Assembly: GCA_905160935.1 (NCBI GenBank)
Contig: CAJHZI010000440.1
Coordinates: 134,001-198,000, forward strand
Source: Enchytraeus crypticus
Taxonomy: Eukaryota > Annelida > Clitellata > Enchytraeida > Enchytraeidae
DNA: 64,000 nucleotides
Reading direction: 5' to 3'
Shown in pieces: positions 3,851 through 60,671 of this stretch (position 1 is its first letter; each line of letters starts with the position of its first letter). Both the position numbers and the translations under genes were made by a program. The notes below the pieces were generated by a model. That model saw only the letters and a program-made list of their open reading frames with translations. It was not told the origin of the DNA and searched no databases.

Positions 3851-4815
3851 CTATGTATTAGGCCTATATAAGTTTTGAACGGATATCCATTCATTAAACT
3901 TATTACTATAGCCCATCCACTTAACTAAAGCTTGTTCAACACCATTAATTTTCTTCTTCCTTATTACTTTCTCTATTCTATATATTTCTTGTTTAGTCTT
4001 TCGTAATTCTTCTTCATAAAAACTACCCTCTAAGACTTCATCCCTTGTATCTTTTAAAATGTAAGTTCTAGTTTCTAGGACTTGTCCGTTTTACTTCAAG
4101 TATAACATAAACAGCTTCAGATCAATTTGGTAGATATCCTTTCTCGAAGACACCCTTTATTCGGCTAATTCTTACTTTATCTCCAACTTTAAACTTTGGT
4201 TTTACTAAACCCTTTTCAGTAAATGGTTTCGTTTCAAAACTAGTTAACTTACTACACTTAACAGGAGTCATACCAATACTACTATGAACCGTATTATTAT
4301 ACTCAGTAATCAATCTATCTAGCTGATCAACCCAGTTTCTAGTATTTTCAGCTGTAAATCTTTTCCACATCTTTTCTTTTAACGTCCTATTCACCCTTTC
4401 AACTACAAGATTTATGCTCTCCATAAGTTGAATATCTATTTATATTATTTTCCTGTAGCCACTGATCCATAATTTTATTATAAAATTCTTTACCTTGATC
4501 CACCCATATACGTCTAGGTCTCCTACCCGAATCCTTTACTATATGTTTAAACGCTTCAGTCACAGTTTCACCCTTTTTATCTTTCAAAGGTACACTCCAT
4601 ACATATTTTGAATATACGTCAATAACATTTAACATGTATTTATAACCTTTATTTACCTTACTCCATTCTTGCATATCCACTAGATCAGCACCCCAAATAT
4701 CATCCACAGCATAAACTTCTACTTTTCTCCTTTCAAACTTCCTTCTAACAGGTTTATGTAATTCTTCAGCCATTTGTTCAAAGGGGCCAGTTAAGACCCC
4801 TTCTTCCAGTTTTTT
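3851..4815 (-). pseudogene. Polinton 1 retroviral-type integrase, frameshifted
   Basis: The protein is a DDE integrase with a C-terminal chromodomain-like tail, expected to insert the element into host DNA. The first catalytic region (DIWGADLVD) and the second (WVDQGKEFYN) lie in the frame ending near 4,399. The region with the catalytic Glu (VERVNRTLKEKMWKRF) is in another frame from 4,424. The chromodomain-like end (KFNEWI) continues in a third frame to 3,851. At least two frameshifts (near 4,410 and 4,120) therefore break it. The frame opens upstream of the first ATG (4,773), immediately after an A AAA AAC heptamer in the PLA2 gene, which suggests translation by -1 frameshifting in the ancestor. 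Confidence 0.88.
4781..4815 (-). promoter_or_regulatory. Candidate -1 frameshift signal, PLA2 to integrase (Polinton 1)
   Basis: On the minus strand the heptamer AAAAAAC (4,809-4,815) is in the X XXY YYZ phase of the PLA2 frame. A 6-nt spacer follows, then AAGGGG, a 10-nt loop and CCCCTT, a perfect 6-bp stem at 4,781-4,802. The -1 frame after the heptamer is the integrase frame. A TGA closes that frame just upstream. The same arrangement occurs in Polinton 2 with a different stem sequence. Confidence 0.75.
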
Positions 4816-5348
4816 TCATTTATACCAAGCCCAAATCTTGCTTTATTCTTCATAATATGATATACTAATCTTGCCATGTTTCTTTGAGTACTGTCAAATT
4901 TAGGATCATTAGAAATTTCATAGGTCCTATGAGCTAAAGCTTCATCGCTTATGTTTCTACTAGCCGTATCCGTATTGTCTGTATAAAACTGATCATGTAA
5001 CTTGCACATTTTATCCAACTCATTAACTCCCTTGTATCCTTCTCTATTCCTCTGTTCATACTTTGTACCAGGGCCGCAATAAGAATACTTATTTTGATTA
5101 TTAAAGGACCCATTATTTACATATTCTCCTTGACTTGTCGGTAAATGTAGTTCATCAACAGTATTTCCGATTTTTGATAGAACGTCATTAAATACACCTT
5201 GGCCGCTTTTGGCTGCGATGAATTTACATTTTTGCTTACCACATAGTATACATACAGCAATTAACATTATTCTGTTATTTTTAGAAACTCTTTCTTGTAT
5301 ATTTGTTGAATCAGTTACTGTTCTACATTTTAAACAGTACATCTCCAA
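4791..5348 (-). CDS. Zinc-ribbon / phospholipase A2-like virion protein (Polinton 1)
   Basis: This 185-residue protein has an N-terminal CxxC...CxxC zinc-ribbon-like segment (MYCLKC, then CILCGKQKC). A PLA2-like region follows with the glycine-rich calcium-loop motif YCGPGTKY and the catalytic-type HDQFY. That motif pair resembles PLA2 of parvovirus capsid proteins, where the enzyme helps virions leave endosomes; that role here is inference. The frame is intact although neighbours are broken. The homologous start in Polinton 2 is the third codon (Met at 5,342). The 3' end carries the candidate frameshift signal into integrase. Confidence 0.8.
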   Translation of the reverse strand: MEMYCLKCRTVTDSTNIQERVSKNNRIMLIAVCILCGKQKCKFIAAKSGQGVFNDVLSKIGNTVDELHLPTSQGEYVNNGSFNNQNKYSYCGPGTKYEQRNREGYKGVNELDKMCKLHDQFYTDNTDTASRNISDEALAHRTYEISNDPKFDSTQRNMARLVYHIMKNKARFGLGINEKNWKKGS

Positions 5349-43600: not shown

Positions 43601-45913
43601 TTCTAAGCTATCTTGCCTTTATCCCGAATTACTTGAAATCGAGCATGGTCAAAGTATTATTTTCAATTTCTATTGTCAGAATATAAGCTCAATGAGGAAT
43701 CTTATTCAACTTTATGAATCTCAAGTGCTGCAGGAGTTGATCACGTCCTTAATAAGGGATTCTATTCGTGAGTCGAAGGAATATGAAGGTTTAACTGTTG
43801 TCAGTGTGGAAATATACGAGTCTGATTTGGAGGACATGAAGCGATGGTGTGAGAAGCTTGCTCGGAGTGTGGTGCAGGGGCTGCCAGGCATTGATGAAAC
43901 AAGTACTACAGCGAGGGAGATCAGCATTCTTTGTGGGAATTCTTCATCGCTATTGGGTATTTCTGGCGATTGTGGGATAGCAAGCAATAATCAACCGTCC
44001 TCTTCTACTTACGACGAATTGTTTGGTGTGGATATCTCAGTGACTCCATCAATACTACCTGCTATGTTGTCTGAATATTCTTTATCTCCTTCCCCAGTTT
44101 TCTCCACACTAAATGAACCTGATTTTGAGAAATTTACGAATAAATCTGAATCTGACACATTTGAGGACGAAAAAGTGCTAATTAAGTTTGATAGCACGGG
44201 CCTTCCCGAAACGCCCGACCTGTATGACTCATACGACCCTTCCCAGGTATTTTCTTAATGCTTCTATTATTTGCAACAATGCCCAATTCAAAGTGTTACT
44301 TGATGGATTGGAATCGTATTTTCTCTTTTACTGTATAGTTTGAATCAGGTGAACAAGCTGGCCTTGTTCTTTGTTTTCGTTCAGTTATTTTTCCATAAAA
44401 AAATGATGATTCTGGACAATAGAGTGTCTTACGGTAGAAGCAGGTATTTAATTTACGAATCGTTTAATGCTAGTGCTGGAATTAGTAGGAACTCTATTTA
44501 AGTTTATTTTAATTCATTGTGATTGTTCTATGATCTTATGTGTGTATATATTTACATGTGATGCATCTTGATCCTGTCTGTTTTTGATGAATAAAGAAAA
44601 TAATAAAAAAGATGTATAGGACATATATTACGACGAGGAGGATTTGATGAAAGATGTAATAGAAGTAAGAATGTAAGGAGAAAAGAGTTAGAGGAATACC
44701 GAGACAAGGGATGATTTTTATATGACTTAATAATATATTCGTATATAAAAGCTGGTAAAGCTAAGGTTAACGTCAGTTTCCTCACTCGAAAGAAAGAAGA
44801 GAAAGAGATTTAGAGATGAAAAGAAAGGCTGAATGAGCTGCCGGTAGTCAGTGCACTGTAGGAGAGAGATTTTAATATCTTGGTTAAAATGTTATTGTTC
44901 GCTAAGGAAGGAAATTTTATATTAATTTGTTAACTTCACTATCGTTTTATATTTTTTGTTTTACTGTTATTTGTTTTCATATCATTTCGTTTCGTATTTT
45001 TTCGATGTAAGCATATTTGTAATTCTACGTTCATTAAGATATGGGTTTTTGTTGTGTGTTCACTTTTAGGATACGATTGATATTATGCATGAACTGTCGC
45101 TATCGGATAGCCATCAGGAAGGGACTTCGCAGTTGGCAGAGCTTGATAAATCTAGAGGTTTTTTAAATTCAAATTTGATTTCTAGTTTTCAGAATGTCTT
45201 AATAGCGTAGGGGTAACGCCATGAAGTTTTAAACGAGAGATACTGAGGTGAATTGAACTCTCGTGGGTTGGAATCCCAGCCGCGCTGATCTGAGAGTAAA
45301 ATCTCGGACATTCAGTGGACTGGTTACACGTAAAATGGTGTAAATTGCTTAACGGTTTAAAAATGTGGTATTAAAAGTGATAGATATCAACATAGTTGAT
45401 CATTTCACTAAAACGCGTGTTTATTTTAATTTATTTTATGTTGTTTGATATTTAACATGTAGTTAAATATTTGCTTAGGCCTACTGTTTTATTGTTGATT
45501 GATATTTAGTATAGATGAATATTGAATAAATTAGGCACTACAAGAAAATTTGTAATCCTTTTTATGTCTTATGTAGGCTAACTATCAATTCATAATTCTT
45601 AAGCTTAGTAAATTTATCTATCTGTACGACTAAGATGCTCTGGTAGCTGCTGTTTACAACATTTAATTCGTATCTTTAAGGTATTCATGAAGATTCTGTT
45701 ACTGTTGGCACCAAATCAAAGTTTTCTACCTGCGAAGAAAAAGTTGATTATTTTTCACTTCGATCTAAAGTATCTGAAAATAGATCGTCTTCATCCTCAT
45801 CGTCATCTTCGTCGTCATATATTTCCTTGTGGTCAGCAGTGGAAGTAGTAGGATTATTGGGGGGCTGGCACATTATGATTTTTAAGCACAACCTAAGATT
45901 AAAACCTAGCTAA
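40631..45913 (+). CDS. CARD-CARD-(TRADD-N-like) signalling protein, right copy, C-terminus rewritten by Polinton 2
   Basis: Exons: 40,631-40,913, 41,429-41,770, 42,700-44,246, 45,070-45,157 and 45,681 onward, all with GT-AG borders. Exon 1 encodes CARD 1 (residues ~1-94) and exon 2 CARD 2 (~95-208). Exon 3 has a Ser/Asn-rich region and a TRADD-N-like segment (~520-600). Exon 5 has a 12-residue Ser-rich run and a normal end now displaced to 60,678-60,732. Without the insertion the exons sum to 2,478 nt, exactly 826 codons. With Polinton 2 the frame runs into its terminal repeat and stops at 45,911, replacing about 18 residues with about 23 encoded by the repeat. Likely an apoptosis or innate immunity adaptor; domain calls are by pattern only. 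The gene would also lack its own polyadenylation site unless one is supplied by the element. Confidence 0.72.
41890..42210 (-). mobile_element. LINE reverse transcriptase fragment in intron, mirror copy
   Basis: Reverse complement of 23,521-23,840 with the same decayed RT stretch. Confidence 0.6.
42229..42266. repeat. Near-perfect hairpin in intron 2
   Basis: Mirror of 23,464-23,501; one mismatch in the stem. Confidence 0.8.
44259..45069. other. Intron 3 of right CARD gene
   Basis: Between donor CAG|GTATTT and acceptor CTTTTAG. At about 44,846-44,872 there is a short SINE A 3' stub (CAGTGCACTGTAGGAG). Similarity to the left arm ends at about 44,715. Confidence 0.6.
45196..45425 (+). mobile_element. 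tRNA-derived SINE family B, copy 3
   Basis: In intron 4 of the CARD gene. It has the same A-box, B-box (GGGTTGGAATCCC), body and TTGATCATTTCA end as the spacer copies. Confidence 0.7.
45838..45843 (+). repeat. Target site duplication of Polinton 2, left copy
   Basis: AGTGGA, repeated at 60,672-60,677. Removing the element and one copy restores the coding frame of the CARD gene exon. Confidence 0.93.
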
Positions 45914-46322
45914 ATTTCCTTTTTAGCCTTGCCCTGCCTTGATTAAGCATACTGAGATGAACGTTAATCATTTCAAGCATAGAATAGCCTTAAAACATAG
46001 CTAAATTCTATTTTAGCCTTGATGCATAAATGTTCCATGAATATTAAGCACAGACATGCCTTGAGTCTTGCTCATTTCTATTTTCTGCCTTAAAATTTAC
46101 ACCATTACAATTGAAGCATAGCCTTGCCTATCAATAATCTAACACACAAGCGTAAAATCAAGCACGCCCACAGCTCACGAGGACAAAAACGATTTCAATT
46201 CACATCATTTCATCCACAAGGCAGAGACAAAATGATTTTAACAGGCATCTTTAGCCTTGATACCTAAGCTTATATCTATATTAGCCTTGTCATCAACGTA
46301 TGTACTGAAAGTATGATAACCA
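45844..46322 (+). repeat. Left terminal inverted repeat of Polinton 2
   Basis: 479 bp, pairing with 60,188-60,671 with few differences and small indels. TAGCCTTG or TAGCCTTA occurs six times, a possible binding-site array. The first 70 bp are read as the new C-terminus of the host gene. Confidence 0.93.
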
Positions 46323-46935
46323 CTCTCCTAGCCTAGCTGTAAACGGTCGGGTTAAAATAACGCAGCTGTTCAGCTACCTTAAAGAAACTATACATGTATG
46401 TAAAAGCCTATACCCGAGACAGCAGAGTATACTCTCAGATACTTAGCTTAAAATAACAGCTGGATGTTTATATATACTGAGCGCTGTAAAAAGCTCTAGT
46501 AAGAAGACACAGCTACTCGATGCCGATGCTCAGATGTTGTAACTCTGTGGAAAGCGAAAGTGAAAAGCCTATACGTGTATATTTCTACAGTATACTTTCC
46601 AAAATTCATAAATGTAGTTACTTTATGAATCAATCAATATATTTACTGTTACCCAAATATCAAATTCATAGCCATCTTCGCTGTGTCTTAAGCTAATGTA
46701 CGTGGTACACTGAGTTACACATCAGCAGCTATAATCTTTTTATAAGACAGCAGAGTATACACGAGTATACTCTGCTGCAGCCTACACGTTAAACAGCTGG
46801 AAAGTTGAGCTTCAGTAGTGGAGTGGTACTCATTCCGTGAATAGCAAAAACCTAAATATAGAAAAGAAAATGAAAATATAATAAAATTTAAAAATATATG
46901 AATTTTATTTAAATATTTTTTCTTACATATATAAA
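46323..46935. promoter_or_regulatory. Upstream region of Polinton 2 PolB
   Basis: It carries GACAGCAGAGTATAC twice (about 46,418 and 46,746). The second copy is part of a perfect 13-bp inverted repeat, listed separately. It ends in a ~40-bp A/T-rich leader (46,899-46,935) that is almost identical to the leader of the AT-hook gene at 59,637. Confidence 0.55.
46748..46777. promoter_or_regulatory. Perfect 13-bp palindrome upstream of PolB
   Basis: CAGCAGAGTATAC, 4-nt ACGA, then GTATACTCTGCTG. It lies 160 bp before the PolB start. Candidate operator, enhancer or replication site; function is inferred only from symmetry and position. Confidence 0.6.
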
Positions 46936-49900
46936 ATGGAAACTCAAACGGTGAAACAATTGCGACTTGTCGCGAAGCAACGAGGTATTAAAAGATACTA
47001 TTCTCTTCGCAAGGCAGAGCTTATTGATGCGTTGTCATCGACATCACAAACAATCGGTGGTGTTGTAGATTTGCTCAATTCTCCTGTACCAGATATTCAA
47101 CAACCGATTTTAGTTCCAACTAAATATAAACCATCACCCAAGAGACATTATGGCAATTTGCTCGACACACCGGTGCCTGATATAAAAACTGAGATTCTTG
47201 CACCAATTAAGACTGGAGTAATGGCAACTATCAAATCATATTGGGATTGGCTGGTAAGCGATGTACCAAGCAACAATAAAAGCAAAGTAAGAGAATCGTA
47301 TAAGACACTAAAGTCTAAAGTTGAGAACATATTTAACAAGTCTAAGGCGGATACGTATGAAATCAAAGAAACAAAATCAGCTTTAAAGGGATTCACTAAG
47401 CAATATACCATTGATGGTCGAAATGGAGTGGATGCAGTGTCATTTCTCAATAGCGTTCAGACAAAAGTGTTAAATGTATTAAACAACAACCCTCAGTCAA
47501 AAGTTAATCTAACACTCACATGTACAATGGAAAGGGTGGATTTGAAGACTGAGGAAATTACATCGTCTGACGCCCCTTTTCTTTCAAAAACTGAAATAAT
47601 TTTACCATCCACAGATACCGCAGAGGTGTATGAAAAGACTAAACGTAAAATGCTAGAGTCAATGGCTAATTTTCAGATGCGGGGTAGTAATTGGAGATTT
47701 CGCAGAGTGATGAAATTAGAAATAAATATTGTAGAATACAAGCCACTACGAGGTAGATCCTACATTCCTCTTCCTGAAGAATTAGCTGATAAAAAGGCTA
47801 TTATAAATATGAAAAATGAAGACGATCAGTGTTTCAAATGGTGTATAGCTAGAGCCTTAAATCCTGTTGAAAAAAATCCACAACGCATTGATAAACAATT
47901 AAAGAAGCAAGCTGAAGAATTTAACTGGACTGGTATTGAGTTTCCGGTTAACTTGAAAAATATTGATAAATTTGAAAAGAATAATAATATTTCTATTCAT
48001 GTATTTGGATATGAAAAGCTATGGGCATGGGCTAAAGAAGAAGAAATAATACCATTAAGGATTTCAACATTTACTAGTCAAAACGCAGTAGATTTGTTAC
48101 TAATATCAGAAGGTGAGATTAATCATTACTGTTGGATAAAAAACTTTAAAAAATTGATGGCAATTGATGGAAATCACCATGCAATGCACTACTGTAGGAG
48201 GTGCTTAAACGGTTTCACAAGTGAAAATGCTCTTAATAATCACAACGAATATTGTTCACAACACGACGCTCAAAAAATAGTGTTGCCTAAACCTGGAACC
48301 TTTATGGAATTTAATCACTACAAAAAATCGATGAGAGTACCATTCATAGTTTACGCAGATTTCGAGTCATTTATTAAACCGATTGATACACGTCAGCCGG
48401 ATCCAAGCAGGTCAACCACTATCCGATACCAGAAACATACACCTAGTTCATTCTGTTATTACATCAAGTGTTTTGATGATAGCATATACTCGCAAGCTCC
48501 AGTCACTTTTACTGCAAAGAATGATGATGACGATGTTGCTCAAATATTCTTTGACACTTTAGAGCAAAATATTAAAGAAATATACAATCAGTTCAAGTTT
48601 TCTAAACCAATGATATTCGATGAATCTGCCGCGAAGAAATTCAAGGCCGCAAAATCATGTCATATTTGTGAAAAAGAGTTGGGTAACGATCGTGTCAGAG
48701 ACCACTGTCATCTATCTGGCAAATTCCGAGGAGCAGCACACGATAAATGTAATTTACAATACAAAATTCCAACATTCTTTCCAGTAGTTTTTCACAATTT
48801 ATCAGGATACGACAGTCACTTATTTATAAAGAAGTTGGCAGGTGGACAAATTAATTGTATTCCGTGTAACGAAGAAAAGTACATCAGTTTCTCTAGGGAA
48901 TTGCTGGTTGACAAGTTTATAAATGAAACAGGTAAAGAAGTCCTAGTGAAACGAGAATTACGGTTTATCGATAGCTTTAGATTTATGGCTTCGAGTCTTG
49001 AGAAACTTTCAAAGAATCTAAGTAAAGATCAGTGTAAGAATATTGCAAGTAAGTATTCTGGAAAGCAATTGGATTTGTTGTTGAGAAAAGGAGTTTACCC
49101 GTACGACTATGTTAGTTCGTCAGAAAGACTTGATGAAACTAAACTACCGCCAAAGGATGCTTTCTACTCAAAACTTAACGATACCAATATCAGTGATGAA
49201 GACTATAAACACGCACAGACTGTTTGGAAAGAGTTTGGTTGTAAAACATTTCGAGACTATCACGACTTGTACAATATATCTGATGTGCTTTTACTAGCAG
49301 ATGTTTTTGAAAATTTTAGAGATGTATGTATGACCCACTATAAATTAGATCCTGCGTGGTACTACACATCACCAGGACTAGCTTGGGATGCTGCTTTAAG
49401 ACTAACTAAAGTTGAACTCGAATTGTTAAGTGACTACGACATGCTATTGATGATTAAGCACGGTATTAGAGGGGGTGTGAGCACAATATCAAACAGATAT
49501 GCAAAAGCTAATAATAAATACATGATTGATAAGTTTAACGTTAATGAACCTTCTAAATTTATCAAATACCTTGACAGTAACAATCTTTATGGGTACTCGA
49601 TGAGTAAGCCTCTACCCACACACGGATTCGAATGGATGACAGAAAAAGAACTGGAGAACTGGAAAGAAATGAAGTGTATACTCGAAGTTGACTTGGAATA
49701 TCCAGCCACGCTGCACGATCTTCATAATGACTATCCTTTAGCGCCCGAGATTGTGAAAGTGAATAAAGTGGATAAACTGATACCGAATTTGAATGACAAA
49801 ACAAAGTATATAATACACTACGAGAATTTGAAATTGTACGAAAGTCTGGGAATGAAAATTACTAAAATACACAGAGGTATAAAATTTGAAGAAAGTCCTT

Positions 49901-50760
49901 GGCTTAAGCCTTACATTGATCTAAATACTCAGCTAAGGACCAAGGCTACCAACGATTTTGAAAAAGACTTTTTCAAACTAATGAATAATAGTGTGTTTGG
50001 CAAAACTATGGAGAATATTGAAAATAGGATAGATTTCAAATTGGTAGACGATAGAGAGAAAGCCATTAAATTAGCTGCAAAACCGTATTATGACCGCACA
50101 ACTATATTTGATGAAAATCTTGTCGGCGTCCACATGAGAAAGACTAAATTGCTGTATAATAAGCCTATATACCTGGGCATGGCAATACTAGATTTAAGTA
50201 AAACTTTAATGTACGACTTTCACTACAACTACATAAAGAACAAATATAACGATAAAGCCAAGCTGTTGTTTACAGATACTGATTCTCTGATGTACGACAT
50301 ACAGACGGAAGATTTTTTCGCAGACATTTCTAATGATGTCGAACAAAAATTTGACACCAGCGAATACCCTAAGGATCATCCATCAGGCATTAAGACTGGA
50401 GTTAACAAGAAAGTTATTGGTATGTTCAAGGACGAAGCCTGTGGAAAAGAGATTGCAGAATTTGTTGGATTGAGAGCAAAGTTGTACTCGTACAAATTAG
50501 CTGACGAAGAGCACAAGAAATGTAAAGGTGTTAAAAAGAATGTTGTTGAAAGGACAATAACGCATGACGATTATAGAGATTGTCTGTTTGAGAAAAGAAA
50601 TCACATGAGAAGCATGAATGTCATCAGATCTCACTTGCATGAAGTCTACACTGAACAAGTAAATAAAATTGCTCTCAGCGCAGACGATGATAAGCGAGTA
50701 ATCATGGACGATGGGATACATACATTCGCGTATGGCAATTACAGGATAAAGACAGCATAG
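46936..50760 (+). CDS. polB: Protein-primed family B DNA polymerase (Polinton 2)
   Basis: 1,274 residues, intact. Order of motifs: SAP-like N-terminus (QLRLVAKQRGIKRYYSLRKA, residues ~9-30); a Polinton-typical region with NMKNEDDQCFKW (~288); C2H2-like finger HYCRRCLNGF (~418); ExoI YADFESF (~473); an endonuclease-VII-like Cys/His module CHICEKEL...RDHCH...CNLQYK (~575-606); ExoII HNLSGYDSHLF (~620); motif A YLDSNNLYGYSM (~878); motif B KLMNNSVFGKTMEN (~1,014); motif C FTDTDSLMYD (~1,112). It copies linear genomes from a terminal protein primer. The 5' flank (TATATAAAATG) fixes the start. The C-terminus is complete, ending 122 bp before the convergent OB-like gene. Confidence 0.96.
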   Translation: METQTVKQLRLVAKQRGIKRYYSLRKAELIDALSSTSQTIGGVVDLLNSPVPDIQQPILVPTKYKPSPKRHYGNLLDTPVPDIKTEILAPIKTGVMATIKSYWDWLVSDVPSNNKSKVRESYKTLKSKVENIFNKSKADTYEIKETKSALKGFTKQYTIDGRNGVDAVSFLNSVQTKVLNVLNNNPQSKVNLTLTCTMERVDLKTEEITSSDAPFLSKTEIILPSTDTAEVYEKTKRKMLESMANFQMRGSNWRFRRVMKLEINIVEYKPLRGRSYIPLPEELADKKAIINMKNEDDQCFKWCIARALNPVEKNPQRIDKQLKKQAEEFNWTGIEFPVNLKNIDKFEKNNNISIHVFGYEKLWAWAKEEEIIPLRISTFTSQNAVDLLLISEGEINHYCWIKNFKKLMAIDGNHHAMHYCRRCLNGFTSENALNNHNEYCSQHDAQKIVLPKPGTFMEFNHYKKSMRVPFIVYADFESFIKPIDTRQPDPSRSTTIRYQKHTPSSFCYYIKCFDDSIYSQAPVTFTAKNDDDDVAQIFFDTLEQNIKEIYNQFKFSKPMIFDESAAKKFKAAKSCHICEKELGNDRVRDHCHLSGKFRGAAHDKCNLQYKIPTFFPVVFHNLSGYDSHLFIKKLAGGQINCIPCNEEKYISFSRELLVDKFINETGKEVLVKRELRFIDSFRFMASSLEKLSKNLSKDQCKNIASKYSGKQLDLLLRKGVYPYDYVSSSERLDETKLPPKDAFYSKLNDTNISDEDYKHAQTVWKEFGCKTFRDYHDLYNISDVLLLADVFENFRDVCMTHYKLDPAWYYTSPGLAWDAALRLTKVELELLSDYDMLLMIKHGIRGGVSTISNRYAKANNKYMIDKFNVNEPSKFIKYLDSNNLYGYSMSKPLPTHGFEWMTEKELENWKEMKCILEVDLEYPATLHDLHNDYPLAPEIVKVNKVDKLIPNLNDKTKYIIHYENLKLYESLGMKITKIHRGIKFEESPWLKPYIDLNTQLRTKATNDFEKDFFKLMNNSVFGKTMENIENRIDFKLVDDREKAIKLAAKPYYDRTTIFDENLVGVHMRKTKLLYNKPIYLGMAILDLSKTLMYDFHYNYIKNKYNDKAKLLFTDTDSLMYDIQTEDFFADISNDVEQKFDTSEYPKDHPSGIKTGVNKKVIGMFKDEACGKEIAEFVGLRAKLYSYKLADEEHKKCKGVKKNVVERTITHDDYRDCLFEKRNHMRSMNVIRSHLHEVYTEQVNKIALSADDDKRVIMDDGIHTFAYGNYRIKTA

Positions 50761-50881
50761 GACTGATGTCGTCTCGATACGAGTACGTCGAGATGTCATT
50801 AAGAATCATACGTTTTGTGTTTCTATTTTCATTAATATTTCAAAACCAAATGTAGTTTGGAAATAAACTTTTTATATTTCT

Positions 50882-51229
50882 TTATAACCATACAACCCCA
50901 GCATCATCGTTCGTGCTTTTGTTAAAACCATCAATCTCTGCATACAACTTTCCTTTATATTTTCCGGAATTGATTCGTCTTACAGTAAAATCAAATCTTT
51001 TAGGCTTATTTTCCAATTTTTCCTTTTTAATATATTCATTAATCTTATTTGTAGACCACACTTTTATAGGGTTATCACCCTCATTTTCTACAACATACAA
51101 AATATATGATTTACCAAATCTTCCATCTATTGATTTCATTCCTATTACGGTATAGTCATATCCCTCCTGAAGTTCTTGAAATTTGATAACGTTGGATTGA
51201 GTGTTTTCGTTAGAGTTTGTAGTTGTCAT
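50882..51229 (-). CDS. Small OB-fold-like, possible ssDNA-binding protein (Polinton 2)
   Basis: 115 residues. The alternating beta pattern (YDYTVIGMKSIDGRFGKSYI, then FDFTVRRINSGKYKGKLYAE) and a polar disordered N-terminus resemble small OB-fold ssDNA-binding proteins, but no diagnostic motif allows certainty. It is convergent with PolB and first after integrase. It starts behind GCTATATAAAATG. No counterpart was found in Polinton 1. Confidence 0.5.
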   Translation of the reverse strand: MTTTNSNENTQSNVIKFQELQEGYDYTVIGMKSIDGRFGKSYILYVVENEGDNPIKVWSTNKINEYIKKEKLENKPKRFDFTVRRINSGKYKGKLYAEIDGFNKSTNDDAGVVWL

Positions 51230-51268
51230 TTTATATAGCTAAGATAATTATTTAAAAAAAAAAAATCT

Positions 51269-52251
51269 TTAAACTAAATTTTGTAAATTTGCAACAGGAA
51301 TCCATTCATTGTACTTTTTACTGTAACCCACCCATTTGACCAAAGCATGTTCAACACCTTTAATCTTTTTCCGTTGCAGTACCTTTTCAATTCTATATAT
51401 TTCTTGATTAGTTTTCTGCAATTCTTCGGCATAGAAACCTCCTTCTAATACCTCACTTGATTGATCCTTCAGTATATATGTAACTGGTGAAGTATACTTT
51501 ACTTTAACTACTTGGAAAACCTCTTCAGACCAATTGGGTAGGTATCCCTTTTCAAAAACACCCTTAATCCGACTAATTCTAACTCTATCACCAACCTCAA
51601 ATTTTCGATTCGTTTCCAAATTTCTATACTTCCTACTGTTAATTATAAATGCTTCGTTTTCCTTTCTACTAGCCTCTGCTGGAGTCATTTTTACGGTTGA
51701 ATGCTTTGTGTTGTTATACATGACAATTAATTCGTTTATCATATCAATCCAATTTCTCGTATTTTCAGCCGTAAACCTCTTCCACATTTTCTCCTTGATG
51801 CTTCTATTGAAACGCTCAACAACTGCCGATTTATGTTCTCCAAATGTAGAGTATTTTTTAATACTATTTTTCTTTAACCAATCATCCATATTCTTGTTGT
51901 AAAATTCCTTACCCTGATCCACCCACAAGAACTTTGGCAACCTGTCTGAACTTTTTACAATAAATTTGAAGGCTTCGGCTACAGTTTCGCCTCTCTTGTC
52001 TTTCAACGGAATGCTCCACGCATACTTGGAAAACACATCGATGACGTTAAGCATGTATCTGTGGCCCTTATTAGCTCTACTCCATTCCTGCATTTCGATT
52101 AAATCTGCTCCCCATATCTCATCAACTTCAAACACGTGAACTTGACGTCTTGTAAATTTTCTACGAATCGGTTTGTGTAATTCTCTAGCCAATTCTTCAA
52201 AGGGTCCAACGTTTCGCTTCAAACCTTTTTCTTCGCTGGACCCTACTTGAA
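51269..52251 (-). CDS. Retroviral-type integrase with chromodomain, no usable ATG (Polinton 2)
   Basis: Catalytic residues counted from the Leu codon at 52,222: Asp in IWGADL (~40), Asp in WVDQGKEFYN (~102), Glu in VVERFNR (~136). Then a basic linker and a chromodomain-like end (HALVKWVGYSKKYNEWIP). The frame is closed by TGA just upstream of an A AAA AAC heptamer in the PLA2 gene and has no ATG before one that lies after the first catalytic Asp. Translation is therefore expected from a -1 frameshift, giving a PLA2-integrase fusion. It inserts element DNA with 6-bp duplications. A TTG start at 52,222 is the alternative. The frame is otherwise intact. Confidence 0.88.
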
Positions 52252-52258
52252 GTTTTTT
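52201..52258 (-). promoter_or_regulatory. Candidate -1 ribosomal frameshift signal, PLA2 to integrase (Polinton 2)
   Basis: AAAAAAC at 52,252-52,258 is in exact X XXY YYZ phase of the PLA2 frame. A 7-nt spacer is followed by AGGGTCCA (52,237-52,244), which pairs perfectly with TGGACCCT (52,201-52,208). A second helix, TTCAA with TTGAA, can extend it. The -1 frame is the integrase frame. Polinton 1 has the same heptamer, phase and spacing with a different stem. Confidence 0.82.
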
Positions 52259-52776
52259 GACTCAACACCAAGACCAAACTTTGCCTTATTTTTCATGATG
52301 TGGTATACAAATCGAGCCATATTTCTTTGTGCACTATCAAATCTTGAATCATTAGCAATTTCGTATGCTCGATGAGCCAAAGCTTCGTCGCTTATATTTC
52401 TGCTCGCTGTATCGGTATTTGCAGTATAAAACTGGTCGTGCAATTTACACATTCCATCCAACTCATTTATACCCTGATAACCTTCGCGATTTCTCAGTTC
52501 GTACTTTGTGCCTGGACCGCAGTACGAATACTTGTTGAGATTATTAAATGAACCGTTAGGTACGTACTCTCCACGTCTGGCAGGTAAATGTAGTTCTCCA
52601 ACTGTATTTCCAACTGCCGATAACACATTATTAAACACACCCTGACCCGAGACAAATTTTGACTTTTTACTTCCACACACTCCACAAATGGCAAATTGCT
52701 GTTTTCTATTATTAGCAGTTAACCTTTCCTGCGTCTGTGTAGAATCAGTTTTCCTTTTACATTTCAAGCAGTACAT
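52243..52776 (-). CDS. Zinc-ribbon / phospholipase A2-like virion protein (Polinton 2)
   Basis: 177 residues. CxxC pairs at 3-6 and 31-34 form a zinc-ribbon-like head. Residues 85-92 (YCGPGTKY) match a PLA2 calcium loop and 113-117 (HDQFY) the catalytic His-Asp. By analogy with parvovirus VP1 it may be a minor virion component that breaches membranes during entry; that is inference. It stops with TAG two codons after a slippery heptamer, and the -1 frame continues as integrase. Starts behind TAATTTAAAAATG. Confidence 0.82.
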   Translation of the reverse strand: MYCLKCKRKTDSTQTQERLTANNRKQQFAICGVCGSKKSKFVSGQGVFNNVLSAVGNTVGELHLPARRGEYVPNGSFNNLNKYSYCGPGTKYELRNREGYQGINELDGMCKLHDQFYTANTDTASRNISDEALAHRAYEIANDSRFDSAQRNMARFVYHIMKNKAKFGLGVESKNFK

Positions 52777-52829
52777 TTTTAAATTACATTATAAAATTTT
52801 ATAACATAATTTTCATATTAGAAAACTTA

Positions 52830-54209
52830 TTAATCTATAATAATCGGAGTCTGACCATCGGATGTTAGGTACATCACTCTATCGGAAAGTATCGTAACAT
52901 ACATATGAGTATGTTCTGGAACATTTTGACTAAATTTAAAATTAAGTTTCATATTCATAACATCAGTTTTGATTCTTTCACTCTGATGTCTTACATCAAA
53001 GACTACAAGTGGAAATAGCTTTTTGTAATTCATCATATCGATCTGTGTACCTCCAATTAAATGATTAAAACCAAAGTGTTCCTTCTTAAATTCATCCGCC
53101 ATAGCGCAGAAATCTACATAGTCATTTGTAGCAAAGTTTATTCTCGGCTCATCTGCAGGATATCTCTGATCATTCAATTCAACAAAAGCACTAGTCAAGT
53201 TAAGGTGATCAAACACAGCTGGATTTTGTTCCTGTGTTCTTGATTTGTCAGTTTGAAATCCAACAATTATCCATCTAGGCTTTTTACTTCCAGCGTCTCT
53301 ATTGATCATCCATTCAAATTCCTGCACGTTGTGCGTAACTGTAGTATGTTGGTCAGTTCTTCTGCTAAAACTTACTGGAATTTTCCTTTTACTTACAACA
53401 GACTCTCGCAGTGAAGTTATCATTTCAACTGACGGTTTTATTCTTGGTACCATCCACCTAATATCCGTTAGTGAAACTTTACCTTCAAAAACGTTATTCG
53501 CTTTATGAATTGCTGATGTGTCTGACGTTCTAGTGAACCTCAACGTATGCCGCAAATTGTAAAGTACTTTGTTATAATCGGAAATTCCAAATAGATGTGA
53601 AAATGGAATGTTGAATGAAAATTGACCTGGCGCATCGTTGTTCATTAGAAGTTGTCGGCGAATCGCAAATCCTTCATTGTAATCTGGATTTTCTTGCGGT
53701 GTAAAATGATTGGCAACAATGGCTGCGCCTCCTGCAACTGCTGGAGATTGTCTATATTTAGAGGACACTGCACCGACGTTTGTGTCCTTTCTCCAACATT
53801 GATTCAATCCCGCGCTGCTATTGAAATCGTCAGGATAAGACAAATAACCCAACATTGACGTAGTCTGTCCTGGAAAACGTAATATTTCAATTGATTTACC
53901 TCCTAGAATATATTCAATATTTTCAAAGAAGTAAGGAATAGCATTATTTATCAAAGCTATTTGAGCTGTTCTATCAAAAGCATCGCCATTGTCATTTCGA
54001 ACTAATCTTCCCTTTATTTTAAGGAAGCTTTTAGCTGGGTTGTAGTACGAATCACTTGCAGGAATATCAATTTCAATAACATGACCATTAGCATCAAAGT
54101 CGGCTTTAGTCTGTGGAATAAAAGACGAGTATTGACAACTTTCTACACTATTGTCTACAATTATTGACGTTGGTTGAGAGAATATTTCGTTTGGCAATTC
54201 AGTTTCCAT
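52830..54209 (-). CDS. Major capsid protein (hexon-like, double jelly-roll type), Polinton 2
   Basis: 459 residues, intact. It is homologous to the frameshifted gene at 5,438-6,801 over its whole length (FPGQTTSMLGYL, FTRTSD, LTDIRW, VFDVRHQSE). Length, beta-rich composition and place beside the penton, ATPase and protease genes match Polinton and adintovirus major capsid proteins. Start fixed by TATATATATAAAATG. Confidence 0.86.
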   Translation of the reverse strand: METELPNEIFSQPTSIIVDNSVESCQYSSFIPQTKADFDANGHVIEIDIPASDSYYNPAKSFLKIKGRLVRNDNGDAFDRTAQIALINNAIPYFFENIEYILGGKSIEILRFPGQTTSMLGYLSYPDDFNSSAGLNQCWRKDTNVGAVSSKYRQSPAVAGGAAIVANHFTPQENPDYNEGFAIRRQLLMNNDAPGQFSFNIPFSHLFGISDYNKVLYNLRHTLRFTRTSDTSAIHKANNVFEGKVSLTDIRWMVPRIKPSVEMITSLRESVVSKRKIPVSFSRRTDQHTTVTHNVQEFEWMINRDAGSKKPRWIIVGFQTDKSRTQEQNPAVFDHLNLTSAFVELNDQRYPADEPRINFATNDYVDFCAMADEFKKEHFGFNHLIGGTQIDMMNYKKLFPLVVFDVRHQSERIKTDVMNMKLNFKFSQNVPEHTHMYVTILSDRVMYLTSDGQTPIIID

Positions 54210-54234
54210 TTTATATATATAATAATTTTTTAAA

Positions 54235-54522
54235 CTAAAATCGTTTTAATCCACTGCCCGATTTTTGTAGTTGTTCTAGTATCTGTTCCGATTCTGGAGT
54301 TAGACGACTATTTTTGCTTGCTATCTTTCTAATTAATGCTTTGCCGCCCTCTGTCAAACCGAATGCAGCAATATCACCTACTGCTCCTAACATTGGCTTT
54401 GCAATTAAATCTTTATTCTGATAGACGTACGAACCCATATCTTTCAGTGTATCGACAAATCCCCGTCCATGTACCAGAGTTTGTTTTGAACTGTATGCTT
54501 TGCATTTCTCTTTGACAATCAT
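54235..54522 (-). CDS. Small virion-like protein (Polinton 2)
   Basis: 95 residues, homologous to 6,810-7,055. A basic N-terminus (KEKCKAYSSKQ) is followed by a GRGFVDTLKDMG segment, a central small-residue stretch (AFGLTEGGKALIRKIA) and SGSGLKRF at the end. Possibly amphipathic and membrane-interacting, like adenovirus pVI; unproven. Confidence 0.58.
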   Translation of the reverse strand: MIVKEKCKAYSSKQTLVHGRGFVDTLKDMGSYVYQNKDLIAKPMLGAVGDIAAFGLTEGGKALIRKIASKNSRLTPESEQILEQLQKSGSGLKRF

Positions 54523-54543
54523 TTTACTAAATACAATATATTT

Positions 54544-55275
54544 TTAATTAGATTTTTCTCTAATTAGTAATACAATAGTAAGTCTTTCACCCATCAGATC
54601 GATAAGTTTGTTGTCTTGATCGGTCAGCCACAGTTTTATACTATCAATTTCATGCCTATTAACTGTTGGTAAAAATATCAATTCAGGAGTAGGATTCTCT
54701 ATTATCTTATAGCCTGGATTTACTCTTTGGGTGAATGTATGAATAACATTAGATCTTTTACCATTAAGATAGTTACCAATAGCAATATCGCAATGGACTT
54801 GTATCGAATTGACTTTTTCTATATCAATTATGTTGGGAGACAGATGAGTTCCATTTGACAGTTTTTCATCGGTGAATCCTAGAGTAGACCCTAATGAATT
54901 GTCAATTCCAAAGTCAACCATGTACTTTTCGTGTGATATAGTCAAAATTGTTTTGAAAATTAAATGACTTATATTTATGTAATATTTTTCATTAATTGCA
55001 TCGTAGTCACCGTTTTCTCGCATTTCCCTTTGAATCGTAGCGTTAATATCTTTTAATTCGTAAGCACCTTTTGAAAGCGTGATTATTTTCCAAGTACTTC
55101 CGCCGTCGGTGGAATATTTAAATTTATTGATGACTTCCGTGATGTTAGGAATTGAATTGTACGTCATCAGAGATATAAATGCTACTTCGTACTTTTTCTT
55201 AGGATCCAAACTTATTGGAGGGTGCAGATATGTAGTAAAATCTGTTGACGTGCTCGACAGAGTTAATTTCGCCAT
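54544..55275 (-). CDS. Minor capsid (penton-like) protein, Polinton 2
   Basis: 243 residues, intact. Clear homologue of 7,139-7,861. The beta-rich sequence, length and position support a single jelly-roll penton protein at capsid vertices. Conserved segments include PNIIDIEKVNSI, ENPTPELIFLP and WLTDQDN. Confidence 0.8.
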   Translation of the reverse strand: MAKLTLSSTSTDFTTYLHPPISLDPKKKYEVAFISLMTYNSIPNITEVINKFKYSTDGGSTWKIITLSKGAYELKDINATIQREMRENGDYDAINEKYYINISHLIFKTILTISHEKYMVDFGIDNSLGSTLGFTDEKLSNGTHLSPNIIDIEKVNSIQVHCDIAIGNYLNGKRSNVIHTFTQRVNPGYKIIENPTPELIFLPTVNRHEIDSIKLWLTDQDNKLIDLMGERLTIVLLIREKSN

Positions 55276-55312
55276 TTTTTTATAGCAGGATTAAATTTTT
55301 AAATTGGATATT

Positions 55313-56173
55313 TTAGAGAACTTCGAAATGGTTTTTATATATATCATCATATTTCCCCTTGGTGATTGCACCAATTCTTAGCAGTTCATCCAATATACCA
55401 ACTGCGGTATTGTATGCTCCATTGTTTCCAGCTTCTAGAGCTGCAAGATTTTCCACCAGCAGATGGACCAATTGATCTGGATTTTCATAGTGTACAACTT
55501 GATCTCCTTTTGGTCTACCTCGTCCACGTTTTTGTTTACCTGCAGGCATTACAAGTTTTCTCTTCTTCTTCTTAAGTCCTTCTCCGACGAGTTCACTCCC
55601 TGCTTTTACCTTAGTCAATATGCTCTTGTATTTTTCCAGTGTTTTCTGTTGAGACTCGCATATCGTTTTCTCAGCTGGAGTCTTTTTACTGTTGTTTCCT
55701 AAAAACTGCCCTATTCGTCTATTATGCGTTTGAATCTCCTTTAATGTTGCTTCAATTTCATTATTTTCATAGACTTCACTTGGAAGTTTCAGGTCGAGCA
55801 GATCTAGATTCTCTCGATCACTTTCATTGAGATTCCTGTCTAAATTAATAATTAAAGGATCCCTCCTTGGTGTGGATTCACGTTCAGGAATAGGTGAATC
55901 ATAAAATGGCATTGCCTGTATAGCCTCTCTCTGATCATTTGAACGCATCAATTGATTAGTAAAGGGAACTAAAAGATTACTCAAGTTTTGATTGTTGTCG
56001 ACAAACTTTTGTTCAAGAGTTTTAGCCGTTTCCTTCGTAGTGTCGATTAACGGTTTGAATAACTTTGCTTGACTCTCATATGACTGTTGATTGCCTAGTT
56101 TCTCATTCAGAAACATTTGTTTGACTTCGTTCTTGGCCTTGTTATACCGGTTAATATCAAACTCCACCATCAT
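55313..56173 (-). CDS. Coiled-coil, AT-hook-like virion-module protein (Polinton 2)
   Basis: 286 residues. Charged helical regions (NEVKQMFLNEKLGNQQ), a basic nuclear-signal-like stretch, and KQKRGRGRPKGD, a good AT-hook. The C-terminal GNNGAYNTAVGILDELLR motif is conserved with Polinton 1. Function is unknown; DNA condensation in the capsid is one option. Confidence 0.68.
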   Translation of the reverse strand: MMVEFDINRYNKAKNEVKQMFLNEKLGNQQSYESQAKLFKPLIDTTKETAKTLEQKFVDNNQNLSNLLVPFTNQLMRSNDQREAIQAMPFYDSPIPERESTPRRDPLIINLDRNLNESDRENLDLLDLKLPSEVYENNEIEATLKEIQTHNRRIGQFLGNNSKKTPAEKTICESQQKTLEKYKSILTKVKAGSELVGEGLKKKKRKLVMPAGKQKRGRGRPKGDQVVHYENPDQLVHLLVENLAALEAGNNGAYNTAVGILDELLRIGAITKGKYDDIYKNHFEVL

Positions 56174-56198
56174 TTTATTACATACATATATTTATTTA

Positions 56199-56316
56199 TT
56201 AGGTATTTTTAGGTATTATTAGGTATTATTAGGTATTTTTATGTATTATTAGGTATTTTTATGTATTATTAGGTATTTTTATATATTATATAGGGTATTA
56301 TTAGGTATTATTAGAT
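56199..56316. repeat. TTAGGTATT(A/T) short tandem repeats
   Basis: About ten units of ATTAGGTATT/ATTTTTATGTATT overlapping the 3' end of the ATPase gene and the gap before the next gene. Units recall TTAGG insect telomere repeats but have extra bases. Part encodes the variable tail of the ATPase. Confidence 0.8.
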
Positions 56317-57019
56317 ATTTTTCAGGTATGTACATTGCATTGTAATTTAACAAATATCTACCACATTCAGGTTCCTCCCACAGATTTACAACAACGTAAC
56401 CGTGCTTATTCATCCAAGCTTCATTACATATTTTTTCAAACTCTTCAAATGACATATCACCACTTACGTGAGTGTCATAGAAATATTTAAGCGATTTTTT
56501 ATCATGTCGAAATAGAATAAAAATATTAGCATTTTGTCGAATTCCATGTTTTTTCAGCTTATGAATGCTCTGACATAAATAGAATACATTCGCATTATTA
56601 TGTCGACCTTGACAGAAGTAATCTGTCATATCTTTCTGATTTTCATTCATGACGTCATCAAATATTACAATATGTGTTTTATTTCTATCGAGTTCAGAAG
56701 GGTGAACTATTCCATCATCTGGGTTGTGAAAAGTAACAATATCTTGACTTGTTTTAGACTTCTTCCTTGATTCATCATTACAATCCCGAAGGAATTTATA
56801 CGCGTCTTGTTCGGGTGTCATTGTGTACACCATCATATCATCATAGTACACTAATTTTTTCATAATGAAGTTCATCATTAGATTTGTCTTGCCACAACCG
56901 GTGCTGCCAGCTAGTATCATAAATATATTTTTAGGAAATATATCGTGATGCTTGCTCTCATAGTTGCTACCGTAAATTTTTTGATAAATTTTCGAATAGT
57001 TAGTATTCAAGTCTACCAT
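56279..57019 (-). CDS. FtsK/HerA-type (A32-like) genome packaging ATPase, Polinton 2
   Basis: 246 residues. Walker A GSTGCGKT at 38-45. Walker B HIVIFDDV at 116-123. Conserved QGRHNNANVFYLCQS follows, with an Arg and a Gln in positions expected for the arginine-finger and sensor region. The enzyme pumps DNA into preformed capsids. The start follows CTACATAAAAATG, 17 bp after the protease stop. Confidence 0.92.
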   Translation of the reverse strand: MVDLNTNYSKIYQKIYGSNYESKHHDIFPKNIFMILAGSTGCGKTNLMMNFIMKKLVYYDDMMVYTMTPEQDAYKFLRDCNDESRKKSKTSQDIVTFHNPDDGIVHPSELDRNKTHIVIFDDVMNENQKDMTDYFCQGRHNNANVFYLCQSIHKLKKHGIRQNANIFILFRHDKKSLKYFYDTHVSGDMSFEEFEKICNEAWMNKHGYVVVNLWEEPECGRYLLNYNAMYIPEKYLIIPNNTLYNI

Positions 57020-57035
57020 TTTTATGTAGTAGTTA

Positions 57036-57490
57036 TTATTTTAAATTGTTTCTTTCGTATAATTCATCTAATACATCCTTGAATAGACTCCCATTGTTCA
57101 GTTTATATAGCACGTAAATACAGTAATGACCGCAGATGACTTCGTTTGGTGCTTGAATTTTAAAAGTGTTAAAATAATTTTCCTTTCCTTTACAATAATG
57201 TTGAACTTCTGATGGAGGTATGAAGCCGTAACTATCAAAATATAGACATTTGCCATTCTTACTATAAAGAAATACCCAATGGGTCCCGTTCCCTTCGCTG
57301 TCATCAATATTAAGAATTAAACTTTCGTTATTACTAACTGATCCCTTTAGCTCATCTCGCATGAATACACCTTTGAAATTTTTTACATTTAGCTCTTTAC
57401 ATTTTTTTATTATATCAAAGTTGCTTAGCGGTTTAAGAGATTTGAATGAGTTTAAAAATTGGGGGAAGTTTATGCCTCCCCCTGTCTTTC
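57036..57490 (-). CDS. Adenovirus-type maturation protease, entered by frameshift (Polinton 2)
   Basis: From Met 57,362: His 28 (GTHWVFLY), Asp 43 (YFDSYGF) and Cys 77 (ICGHY) form the adenain-type triad. About 43 codons upstream in the same frame encode what looks like the N-terminal helix of the fold (SNFDIIKKC, FKGVF), with no ATG between an upstream TAA (57,531-57,533) and Met 57,362. That part is reachable by a -1 shift from the core-like gene at TTTTTTA. Cleaves virion precursors during maturation. The alternative is a shortened protein starting at Met 57,362. Confidence 0.85.
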
Positions 57491-57497
57491 TAAAAAA
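57461..57497 (-). promoter_or_regulatory. Candidate -1 ribosomal frameshift signal, core-like protein to protease
   Basis: TTTTTTA (57,491-57,497) is in exact slip phase of the core-like frame. After an 8-nt spacer, GGGGGAGG (57,475-57,482) pairs with CTTCCCCC (57,461-57,468) around a 6-nt loop, with one G-U pair. The zero-frame stop lies in the loop. The -1 frame is the protease frame. Polinton 1 keeps the heptamer at 10,036-10,042. Confidence 0.8.
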
Positions 57498-58042
57498 ACT
57501 CCTGATCCACCTCTTTCCAAATACAATCCATTACCCCACTGAGCTCCTTTCAAATTCTTGACGCATCCACCGAGTCCAAATTTCTTCAACGCATTTGATA
57601 GCGTTTTACCTATAACGGGGATTGGAGCTATTGCGTCGCTGATTAAGCCTGCGCCGAGTTGTTGCTTGGTTATGTTTTCCAATTCTTGATTATGTCTCTT
57701 CAATTCATTTGTCTGTCTAGTCGAATTCACTGCCGAGCTAATTCCACCTGCCAATCCACCTATAGCTCCCACGATGGCGGGAATGGCTGCTGCCAACAAC
57801 GGCAGAAATCCTCCATTCTTTTCCATGTACTTTAATTGTGCTCTACTCAGACACAATTCTATTCCAGATGTAGCCTTTTTAATTTTATTAATTTGAGTTT
57901 GGGTGAGAGGAAGATTCGTATTACCCGACAAATTCTTTTTTAATATTCGTATTTTAACCTCTCTATCATGATCGCACGCGCTCTTTAGTTTTTGGACCTG
58001 ACCTTTAGTCAACGTTACACCGTAGTTTGTATACTTTGACAT
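57470..58042 (-). CDS. Core-like protein with hydrophobic Gly/Ala segment (Polinton 2)
   Basis: 190 residues from Met 58,042, preferred over a Met four codons upstream because it lies right behind TATATAAAATG. N-terminal part has two similar basic segments (LTKGQVQKLKSACD and LSRAQLKYMEK). The middle is a hydrophobic stretch with AAAIPAIVGAIGGLAGG, a probable membrane-active helix. A PIPVIGKTLSNALKKFGLGG segment and a WGNGLYLERGGSG end follow. Homologous to 10,036-10,721. Possibly a DNA-binding or membrane-lytic minor virion protein. Confidence 0.62.
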   Translation of the reverse strand: MSKYTNYGVTLTKGQVQKLKSACDHDREVKIRILKKNLSGNTNLPLTQTQINKIKKATSGIELCLSRAQLKYMEKNGGFLPLLAAAIPAIVGAIGGLAGGISSAVNSTRQTNELKRHNQELENITKQQLGAGLISDAIAPIPVIGKTLSNALKKFGLGGCVKNLKGAQWGNGLYLERGGSGVFLERQGEA

Positions 58043-58095
58043 TTTATATAACATTTAAATTTTTATTATAAACTTTTATCTTATGTATTTAAAAT

Positions 58096-59061: not shown

Positions 59062-59115
59062 ACGTCGTCGTAAATTGCGATATTTAAATTCGTTAATAAA
59101 TGTATTAACAAATTT

Positions 59116-59520
59116 TTATGTAAATTCAGAAATAATCTGATTATAGGCTGCCTCAGCAAGATTTCCGTTACAGGAGACAACAAAGTCAAATCTTTCATTA
59201 AGTTTATTTAGTTTTTCAATTTCTGTATTTAGTTTATTACTTTTAGCTTGAAAATTAAATTTATTGGCGAAGGCTGTCAATATACCGCTTGAAGTGGATA
59301 ACACTATTATAGCAACGGGTGGAATTACAACAGCTGTAGCAGTTGCAGCTAGCACTGCGGAAATTACGATCGAAGCCACCGCGGTAGTGTAGGAAAGTGT
59401 TTTTATAATCTTTCGCTTTTTCTTTAGTTTTTTAACAACTGTTTGCCTTTCTTCAAGCTTTCTAATTAAAAATGCTTTCAGTTTACTCGAAAGCGAAGTG
59501 CCATCTACTGTGTCTGTCAT
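59116..59520 (-). CDS. Two-helix membrane protein with coiled coil (Polinton 2)
   Basis: 134 residues from Met 59,520, chosen because it follows ATAATAAAAAAATG; a Met 13 codons upstream is possible. A basic N-terminal half (ERQTVVKKLKKKRKII) precedes two hydrophobic segments (TAVASIVISAVLAATATAVV, then PPVAIIVLSTSSGIL) forming a likely membrane hairpin, then a coiled coil (KSNKLNTEIEKLNKLNERF). No homologue in Polinton 1. Perhaps a holin-like or envelope protein; unproven. Confidence 0.55.
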   Translation of the reverse strand: MTDTVDGTSLSSKLKAFLIRKLEERQTVVKKLKKKRKIIKTLSYTTAVASIVISAVLAATATAVVIPPVAIIVLSTSSGILTAFANKFNFQAKSNKLNTEIEKLNKLNERFDFVVSCNGNLAEAAYNQIISEFT

Positions 59521-60187: not shown

Positions 60188-60671
60188 TGGTTATCATACT
60201 TTCAGTACATACGTTGATGACAAGGCTAATATAGATATAAGCTTAGGTATCAAGGCTAAAGATGCCTGTTAAAATCATTTTGTCTCTGCCTTGTGGATGA
60301 AATGATGTCAATTGAAATCGTTTTTGTCCTCGTGAGCTGTGGGCGTGCTTGATTTTACGCTTGTGTGTTAGATTATTGATAGGCAAGGCTATGCTTCAAT
60401 TGCAATGGTGTAAATTTTAAGGCAGAAAATAGAAATGAGCAAGACTCAAGGCATGTCTGTGCTTAATATTCATGGAACATTTATGCATCAAGGCTAAAAT
60501 AGAATTTAGCTATGTTTTAAGGCTATTCTATTTTAGCCTTGAAATGATTAACGTTCATCTCAGTATGCTTAATCAAGGCAGGGCAAGGCTAAAAAGGAAA
60601 TTTAGCTAGGTTTTAATCTTAGGTTGTGCTTAAAAATCATAATGTGCCAGCCCCCCAATAATCCTACTACT
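60188..60671 (-). repeat. Right terminal inverted repeat of Polinton 2
   Basis: 484 bp, reverse complement of 45,844-46,322 with few differences. Confidence 0.93.

Follow-up and report, generated by a model that had tools for sequence, protein, structure and literature searches.

Probable Conserved -1 Ribosomal Frameshifting Between a PLA2-Like Gene and the Integrase of a Polinton

Introduction

Retroviruses join an rve-type integrase to an upstream protein of the element by -1 ribosomal frameshifting, and the heptamer A AAA AAC serves as a retroviral shift site, e.g., in gag-pro of MMTV and HTLV. In the IS3 family of insertion sequences the upstream partner is generally a DNA-binding protein, and the shift sites and their stimulators vary among members. 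The -1 frameshift of this family is described as fusing a small upstream protein to the catalytic domain, and A_AAA_AAC is placed among the most shifty heptamers for mammalian ribosomes (both PMC5009743).

The locus studied here lies in a window of 64,000 nt, by which we mean the whole stretch of DNA that was analyzed. It resembles the retroviral gag-pro sites in having the same heptamer, a similar spacer and a downstream structure. Unlike the retroviruses, the element is a capsid-coding Polinton, its upstream partner is a DUF5679-PLA2 protein and the predicted fusion of PLA2 to integrase is direct. The IS3 family, unlike the Polinton site, is bacterial.

Adintoviruses, a related virus group, also have a predicted -1 slippery site; a -1 frameshift has been suggested near the 3′ end of some of their Penton genes, but there it would give an alternative Penton tail and not an integrase (PMC11071296). 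The Sf Mavericks carry both kinds of gene found in our element, a PLA2-containing CAP and a chromodomain integrase, as separate ORFs, and the available text of PMC5803895 does not mention a frameshift between them. Frameshifts are likewise not mentioned in the main text of PMC8547959. Where the word does appear in the available text of the Polinton-integrase literature, it refers to decay, errors, search settings, other viruses or the adintovirus Penton.

The initial annotation of this DNA knew of no earlier report for Polintons, and our literature search (subscription papers being outside its scope) agrees with it, as the available texts yielded no account of frameshifting in the expression of a Polinton, Maverick or adintovirus integrase. 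To our knowledge a frameshift-made Polinton integrase is new as far as this search shows, which is not proof of priority. If true, it would within the same scope be the first case in which a eukaryotic DNA transposon uses programmed frameshifting for its integrase, and an instance of convergence with retroviruses and IS3 elements.

Polinton Elements in the Window

Two Polinton-type elements, here called A and B, are present in the window:

45844-60671, Polinton A, 14.8 kb, with terminal inverted repeats and long open frames
45844..46322, left terminal inverted repeat of Polinton A (inverted repeats I8, 99%, and I22, 98%)
60188..60671, right terminal inverted repeat of Polinton A, partner of the left repeat
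About 3.0-19.1 kb, Polinton B, degraded

The terminal inverted repeats of Polinton A are nearly identical (98–99%), and repeats and size together fit a Polinton/Maverick (∼15–20 kb). Pfam models identified an rve integrase (PF00665), an A32-type packaging ATPase (PF04665, E 9.6e-06) and a double jelly-roll capsid protein (PF21738, E 1.3e-41). The candidate for a protein-primed DNA polymerase B is an ORF of 1274 aa that matches Rho_N and Endonuclease_7 and no PolB model at E 0.01; it also contains a DTDS motif. Among the ORFs of Polinton A, none stood out as a reverse transcriptase.

Elsewhere in the window, 21112-26923 and 38495-44734 form a large inverted duplication, with arms that are 89–100% complementary and copies of the same ORFs on both sides. 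By eye, a reverse-transcriptase-like ORF could be seen at 11233-12021 inside the degraded Polinton B, perhaps a piece of a non-LTR retrotransposon.

Both A and B carry a gene encoding DUF5679 and PLA2-like domains and, downstream of it on the same strand, an rve integrase read in the -1 frame:

52243..52776, minus strand, PLA2-like gene of Polinton A (zero frame); PF18930 E 2.2e-09, PF08398 E 5.4e-07
51269..52261, minus strand, integrase frame of Polinton A (-1 to PLA2); PF00665 E 3.2e-10, PF00385 E 2.5e-07
4791..5342, minus strand, PLA2-like gene of Polinton B; PF18930 E 6e-10, PF08398 E 9.3e-08
4399..4815, minus strand, first part of the Polinton B integrase in the -1 frame; downstream, frame changes and stops disrupt the gene

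The PLA2-like protein of Polinton A consists of DUF5679 and Phospholip_A2_4 domains and has the C-terminal end S-K-N-F-K-stop. The integrase frame is open for 330 codons and encodes the rve core and a C-terminal chromodomain.

Predicted Frameshift Site

The junctions of the two gene pairs contain the following features:

52252..52258, minus strand, slippery heptamer A AAA AAC of Polinton A, in PLA2 phase (tcA AAA AAC)
52245..52251, minus strand, 7-nt spacer TTCAAGT of Polinton A, including the PLA2 end
52234..52244, minus strand, 5′ arm of the Polinton A stem; 11 contiguous pairs, fold z -4.8
52201..52211, minus strand, 3′ arm of the Polinton A stem; codes GPF residues in the integrase frame
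4809..4815, minus strand, heptamer A AAA AAC of Polinton B, in phase (gaA AAA AAC); this copy is L038
4795..4803, minus strand, 5′ arm of the predicted Polinton B stem (GAAGGGGTC)
4780..4788, minus strand, 3′ arm of the predicted Polinton B stem (GGCCCCTTT)

All features that the initial annotation had described for Polinton A were found on the minus strand. The PLA2 gene does end in an in-phase A AAA AAC followed by a 7-nt spacer (52258-52245), with its stop codon TAG at 52245-52243. The stem, which had been called perfect and extendable, pairs AGGGTCCA with TGGACCCT and lengthens inward to 11 contiguous pairs (52244-52234 with 52211-52201), with 5 more outer pairs beyond a 2-nt bulge. The integrase lies in the -1 frame, which opens at 52261 right after a TGA just upstream (52264-52262), and has no ATG before the first catalytic Asp, its first ATG (52093) being downstream of that residue.

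The fold of Polinton A over 57 nt has an energy of -20.8 kcal/mol and a z of -4.8, equaled by 0/200 shuffles; over 92 nt the z is -3.6. The Polinton B stem has 9 pairs including G-U, begins 5 nt past the heptamer and folds at -14.9 kcal/mol (z -3.3), and is weak in a longer stretch (56 nt, z -2.2, 6/200 shuffles as good). The two stems differ in sequence and in loop (22 nt in A vs. 6 nt in B).

The overlap open to a shift before the PLA2 stop is short, 16 nt in A and 22 nt in B. The 23 listed ORFs of the two elements comprise 6430 codon positions, of which 3 carry an in-phase A AAA AAC, two of them at the PLA2 ends. At that rate the overlap would hold one by chance with a probability of ∼0.002 in A and ∼0.003 in B; for any in-phase X XXY YYZ heptamer the values are 0.02 and 0.03, respectively. 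Because A and B are homologous, their sites are not independent draws. The third in-phase A AAA AAC lies within the large polymerase-like ORF of A (46936-50760).

The Site in Copies From the Same Genome

With the -1 frame of Polinton A as query, at least 121 integrase places were found in the element's own genome of 524 Mb (121 of 1003 candidates scored). Most of them have an open frame of ∼330 codons, as in A, where the frame begins at the heptamer. The PLA2 of Polinton B gave 156 matches. We examined 140 junctions (L008-L147, 60 + 80), of which 101 belong to the 121 integrase places and 39 to PLA2 places. L123 and L136, in which the PLA2 end was not located, and L098, an odd, rearranged stretch, were left out of the counts, which leaves 137 countable copies; L136, though left out, shows SKN.

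A AAA AAC stands in phase ahead of the PLA2 stop in 127 of these 137 copies. Loss of the heptamer from related elements with otherwise conserved junctions had been named at the outset as a finding that would speak against frameshifting, and the site is instead kept. The 10 exceptions comprise four copies with base changes in the heptamer (L011, L072, L103, L097), two with a longer A run that lacks the C (L108, L109), two with a heptamer indel that merges the frames (L128, L135) and two with a stop ahead of the site (L133, L066). Since own-genome copies have a common ancestry, the 127 are not 127 independent events; the distinct copies form 17 clusters at 90% PLA2 identity, 14 of which include copies with the site, and 7 clusters at 80%.

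In L088, L119, L128, and L135, PLA2 and integrase stand in one frame through small indels in or after the heptamer, as they do in public fusion proteins. Three of these four copies have stops within the integrase match. A search that started from a fused public protein, with 90 of 1369 candidates scored, gave nine single-piece matches spanning both domains, each with at least one stop. Besides these there were a few matches in two pieces within long open frames, and most of the remainder were frames of ∼330 codons.

Codon-Level Selection on the Heptamer

For the codon test, copies were picked by their residues and not by the heptamer. Lys-Asn is found at the site in 132/137 copies, encoded by AAA AAC in 129, AAG AAC in two and AAA AAT in one, so that the Asn codon is AAC in 131/132. 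The upstream part of these PLA2 genes uses AAC for Asn in 316/2057 cases (223/1322 over 90 distinct stretches) and AAA for Lys in 1050/1547, and all 51 of its Lys-Asn pairs read AAA AAT (51/51).

Across 102 distinct rows the mean diversity of the heptamer is 0.014, compared with 0.246 in the 12 nt before it, 0.261 in the 7 nt after it, 0.152 in PLA2 overall and 0.269 at nearby third positions. This is the third lowest diversity of 361 7-nt windows, and the two less variable windows sit at the base of the 3′ arm of the stem. Both results indicate that the site is under codon-level selection, as judged from the aligned copies. By codon position, diversity is 0.106, 0.072, and 0.268 in PLA2 upstream, and 0.142, 0.073, and 0.252 in the -1 frame downstream of the stem. 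Each frame therefore appears to be constrained as protein on its own side of the site.

The Downstream Stem in Other Copies

In a survey of 59 distinct 80-nt stretches (60 shuffles each), z was below -2 in 57, with a mean of -4.07. The best stem starts 5 nt past the heptamer in 49/59 stretches and 4 nt past it in three, and all start at 4–9 nt; the loops range from 4 to 39 nt. Pairing was also scored with fixed anchors that are independent of pairing, in 58/59 stretches (L127 has no anchor). With these anchors, 500/522 pair cells form (96%) vs. 32–73% when one arm is slid by 1–3 nt.

Pair 7 of the stem is U-A in 45 stretches and G-C in nine, and pair 8 is C-G in 43, U-G in eight and U-A in three. 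Both pairs are doubly compensated, with both sides changing between subfamilies, and because the copies have a common ancestry this covariation represents few events. Over their full length, the stem arms show no lower diversity than PLA2 (0.124 and 0.165 vs. 0.152). A third type of stem is seen in L143 (G000:C26:24790-25625), where a 37-nt loop contains, by eye, a long A+T-rich inverted repeat. Given this repeat, the L143 hairpin could be about twice as long.

Starts Available to the Integrase Frame

In all 127 copies with the site, the -1 frame is closed 0–27 nt ahead of the heptamer. An ATG upstream of the heptamer in the integrase frame, which the initial annotation had also listed as telling against frameshifting, is found in none of the 127/127 copies. 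The first catalytic Asp could be located in 114 of the 127, and between heptamer and Asp 108/114 have no Met codon, 104 of these also being without a stop. The six copies with a Met ahead of the Asp (6/114) are Polinton B and five others. In B the ATG lies at 4773, shortly past the junction, at a position where the other copies of B's type (rows displayed) have CTG. Near-cognate starts are present ahead of the Asp, with GTG in 110/114 copies and CTG in 32/114.

PLA2-Integrase Fusions and PLA2 Tails in Public Proteins

The nucleotide evidence comes from the own genome, and other species are known here from their proteins. Among 2375 integrase relatives the following figures concern the best 120 listed. 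PLA2 and integrase are encoded in one frame in 42/120, and not in 78/120 (two rows, P0005 and P0111, were set by eye). As so many listed relatives encode it, the PLA2-integrase fusion is evidently a working product.

The one-frame DUF5679-PLA2-integrase relatives, e.g., P0018, P0014, and P0028 (integrase 64–67% identical), have the same domains in the same order as Polinton A, but give one product where Polinton A would give two. The linker of the one-frame fusions reads WNEEL instead of SKN...GPF and has no Lys-Asn shift site. GPF ahead of the integrase is found in 6/16 non-fused entries that are long enough vs. 1/42 fused ones (P0012).

A quick tree (SH-aLRT only, simple model) was made from 119 of the 120 listed homologs, P0002 being left out, together with A and B. 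It requires seven changes between the fused and non-fused states, and well-supported branches force at least four of these. A and B belong to a single starred group of 23 non-fused rows, with only 35% of the columns available for B. P0061 and P0063 have integrases that are 96% identical, one fused in frame to PLA2 and the other not, which points either to a switch that happened very recently or to an error in the sequence.

Among the entries from the source jgi, 18 of the 20 non-fused integrases begin with Val or Leu. These would therefore start at GTG or TTG, while other sources appear to print M. If the integrase is made by frameshifting, gene callers get only part of the protein, as in these 18/20 jgi entries.

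From 463 PLA2 relatives the best 120 were listed, 118 of them with a readable end. Lys-Asn is present in the tail of 108/118, after a linker of 1–15 residues and with Ser before it in 96. Shuffled tails gave a mean of 46 and a maximum of 61 for the same 118 tails, whose relatives are not mutually independent. Ten tails lack Lys-Asn: four end immediately and are perhaps truncated, three have SKQ, and the others are those of P0152, P0162, and P0227. SKQ takes the place of SKN in P0149, P0165, and P0193.

The common PLA2 tail SKNLKKGPM and the sequence KKLEEGSN of integrase P0015 can be two readings of one DNA, although the two are not from one known contig. Only one of 63,564 8-residue stretches (240 homologs) fits the -1 reading of SKNLKKGPM, and it is the junction of P0015.

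Alternative Explanations

That a truly one-frame fused gene was broken by a mutation or a sequencing error in the A run might be suspected, since one-frame fusions are common in relatives and homopolymers are error-prone. The own-genome copies rule this out, and we give it practically no weight: the same frame relation and the same site recur in 127/137 copies and in the diverged Polinton B, the site is under codon-level selection and no other break interrupts the integrase frame over 330 codons. The frames could also be joined in the RNA, either by splicing, which is conceivable in a eukaryotic host, or by transcriptional slippage on the run of six A (seven in B). Polymerase slippage would favor longer A runs, but the in-phase C after the run is kept in 127/137 copies. 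A stem at 5–7 nt past the heptamer, as present here, is the architecture of ribosomal frameshifting. A_AAA_AAC being one of the shiftiest heptamers for mammalian ribosomes (PMC5009743) also speaks against joining in the RNA, which we regard as highly improbable.

Translation of the integrase alone, by internal or non-AUG initiation or by reinitiation after the short PLA2 overlap, is the least improbable of these alternatives and still very unlikely. It would suit an overlap of a few bases, the ATG at 4773 in B and the near-cognate codons ahead of the Asp (GTG in 110/114 copies, CTG in 32/114). Yet 108/114 copies have no Met ahead of the Asp, and separate initiation leaves unexplained the kept A AAA AAC, the AAC bias, the 5–7 nt spacing and the stem, as well as the fusion in relatives.

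Proposed Mechanism and Role

Conserved -1 programmed ribosomal frameshifting very probably makes a PLA2-integrase fusion in this Polinton. The frameshift interpretation of the initial annotation gains support from the 127/137 copies, the codon selection, the covarying stem and the one-frame fusions in relatives, all of these being features of sequence, from which we infer both the slippage itself and its efficiency. PLA2 and integrase would be two overlapping frames of one message. Ribosomes translating PLA2 would meet tcA AAA AAC with a stem-loop 5–7 nt ahead, and most would terminate at the stop just beyond, giving free PLA2 protein. In a minority, a slip of one base backward would move the pairing from AAA AAC to AAA AAA, and translation would continue in the integrase frame. 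The product of the slip would be a DUF5679-PLA2-integrase-chromodomain fusion, made at a fixed minor ratio.

The purpose of such a ratio is probably that integrase is brought into particles or to DNA via the PLA2 part in a limited amount. Parvoviruses have PLA2 domains of this type attached to their capsid proteins (PMC4642659), which makes the idea of integrase packaging attractive, and the entry of integrase into virions through the fusion is at present speculation. A fuller reading, which we offer tentatively and hold to be somewhat short of an even chance, is a Gag-Pol-like device. Frameshifting would keep a small constant share of the integrase joined to a PLA2-like virion protein, so that it enters particles and is delivered together with the DNA, and lineages would repeatedly have swapped frameshifting for plain fusion, where another step, e.g., proteolysis, would set the ratio. 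If the fusion is made by frameshifting, expression and delivery of the Polinton integrase become testable, and it is the protein to seek in particles.

Related Sequences in Public Contigs

Scans of IMG/VR with the integrase of A, a PLA2 alignment and an integrase alignment gave no relative, and a region search with P0012 returned only P0012 itself. Two junction DNA patterns had a single match, L007, which by eye is a phage-like contig and was rejected as a chance match. In GTDB contigs, six integrases (L001-L006) were found that are 40–43% identical and are filed as Ignavibacteria, Nomurabacteria, and Poribacteria; these Polinton-like integrases in contigs filed as bacterial are probably contamination. 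No PLA2-like frame was seen by eye in up to 800 nt upstream of the six, and AAAAAAC strings occur upstream of some of them.
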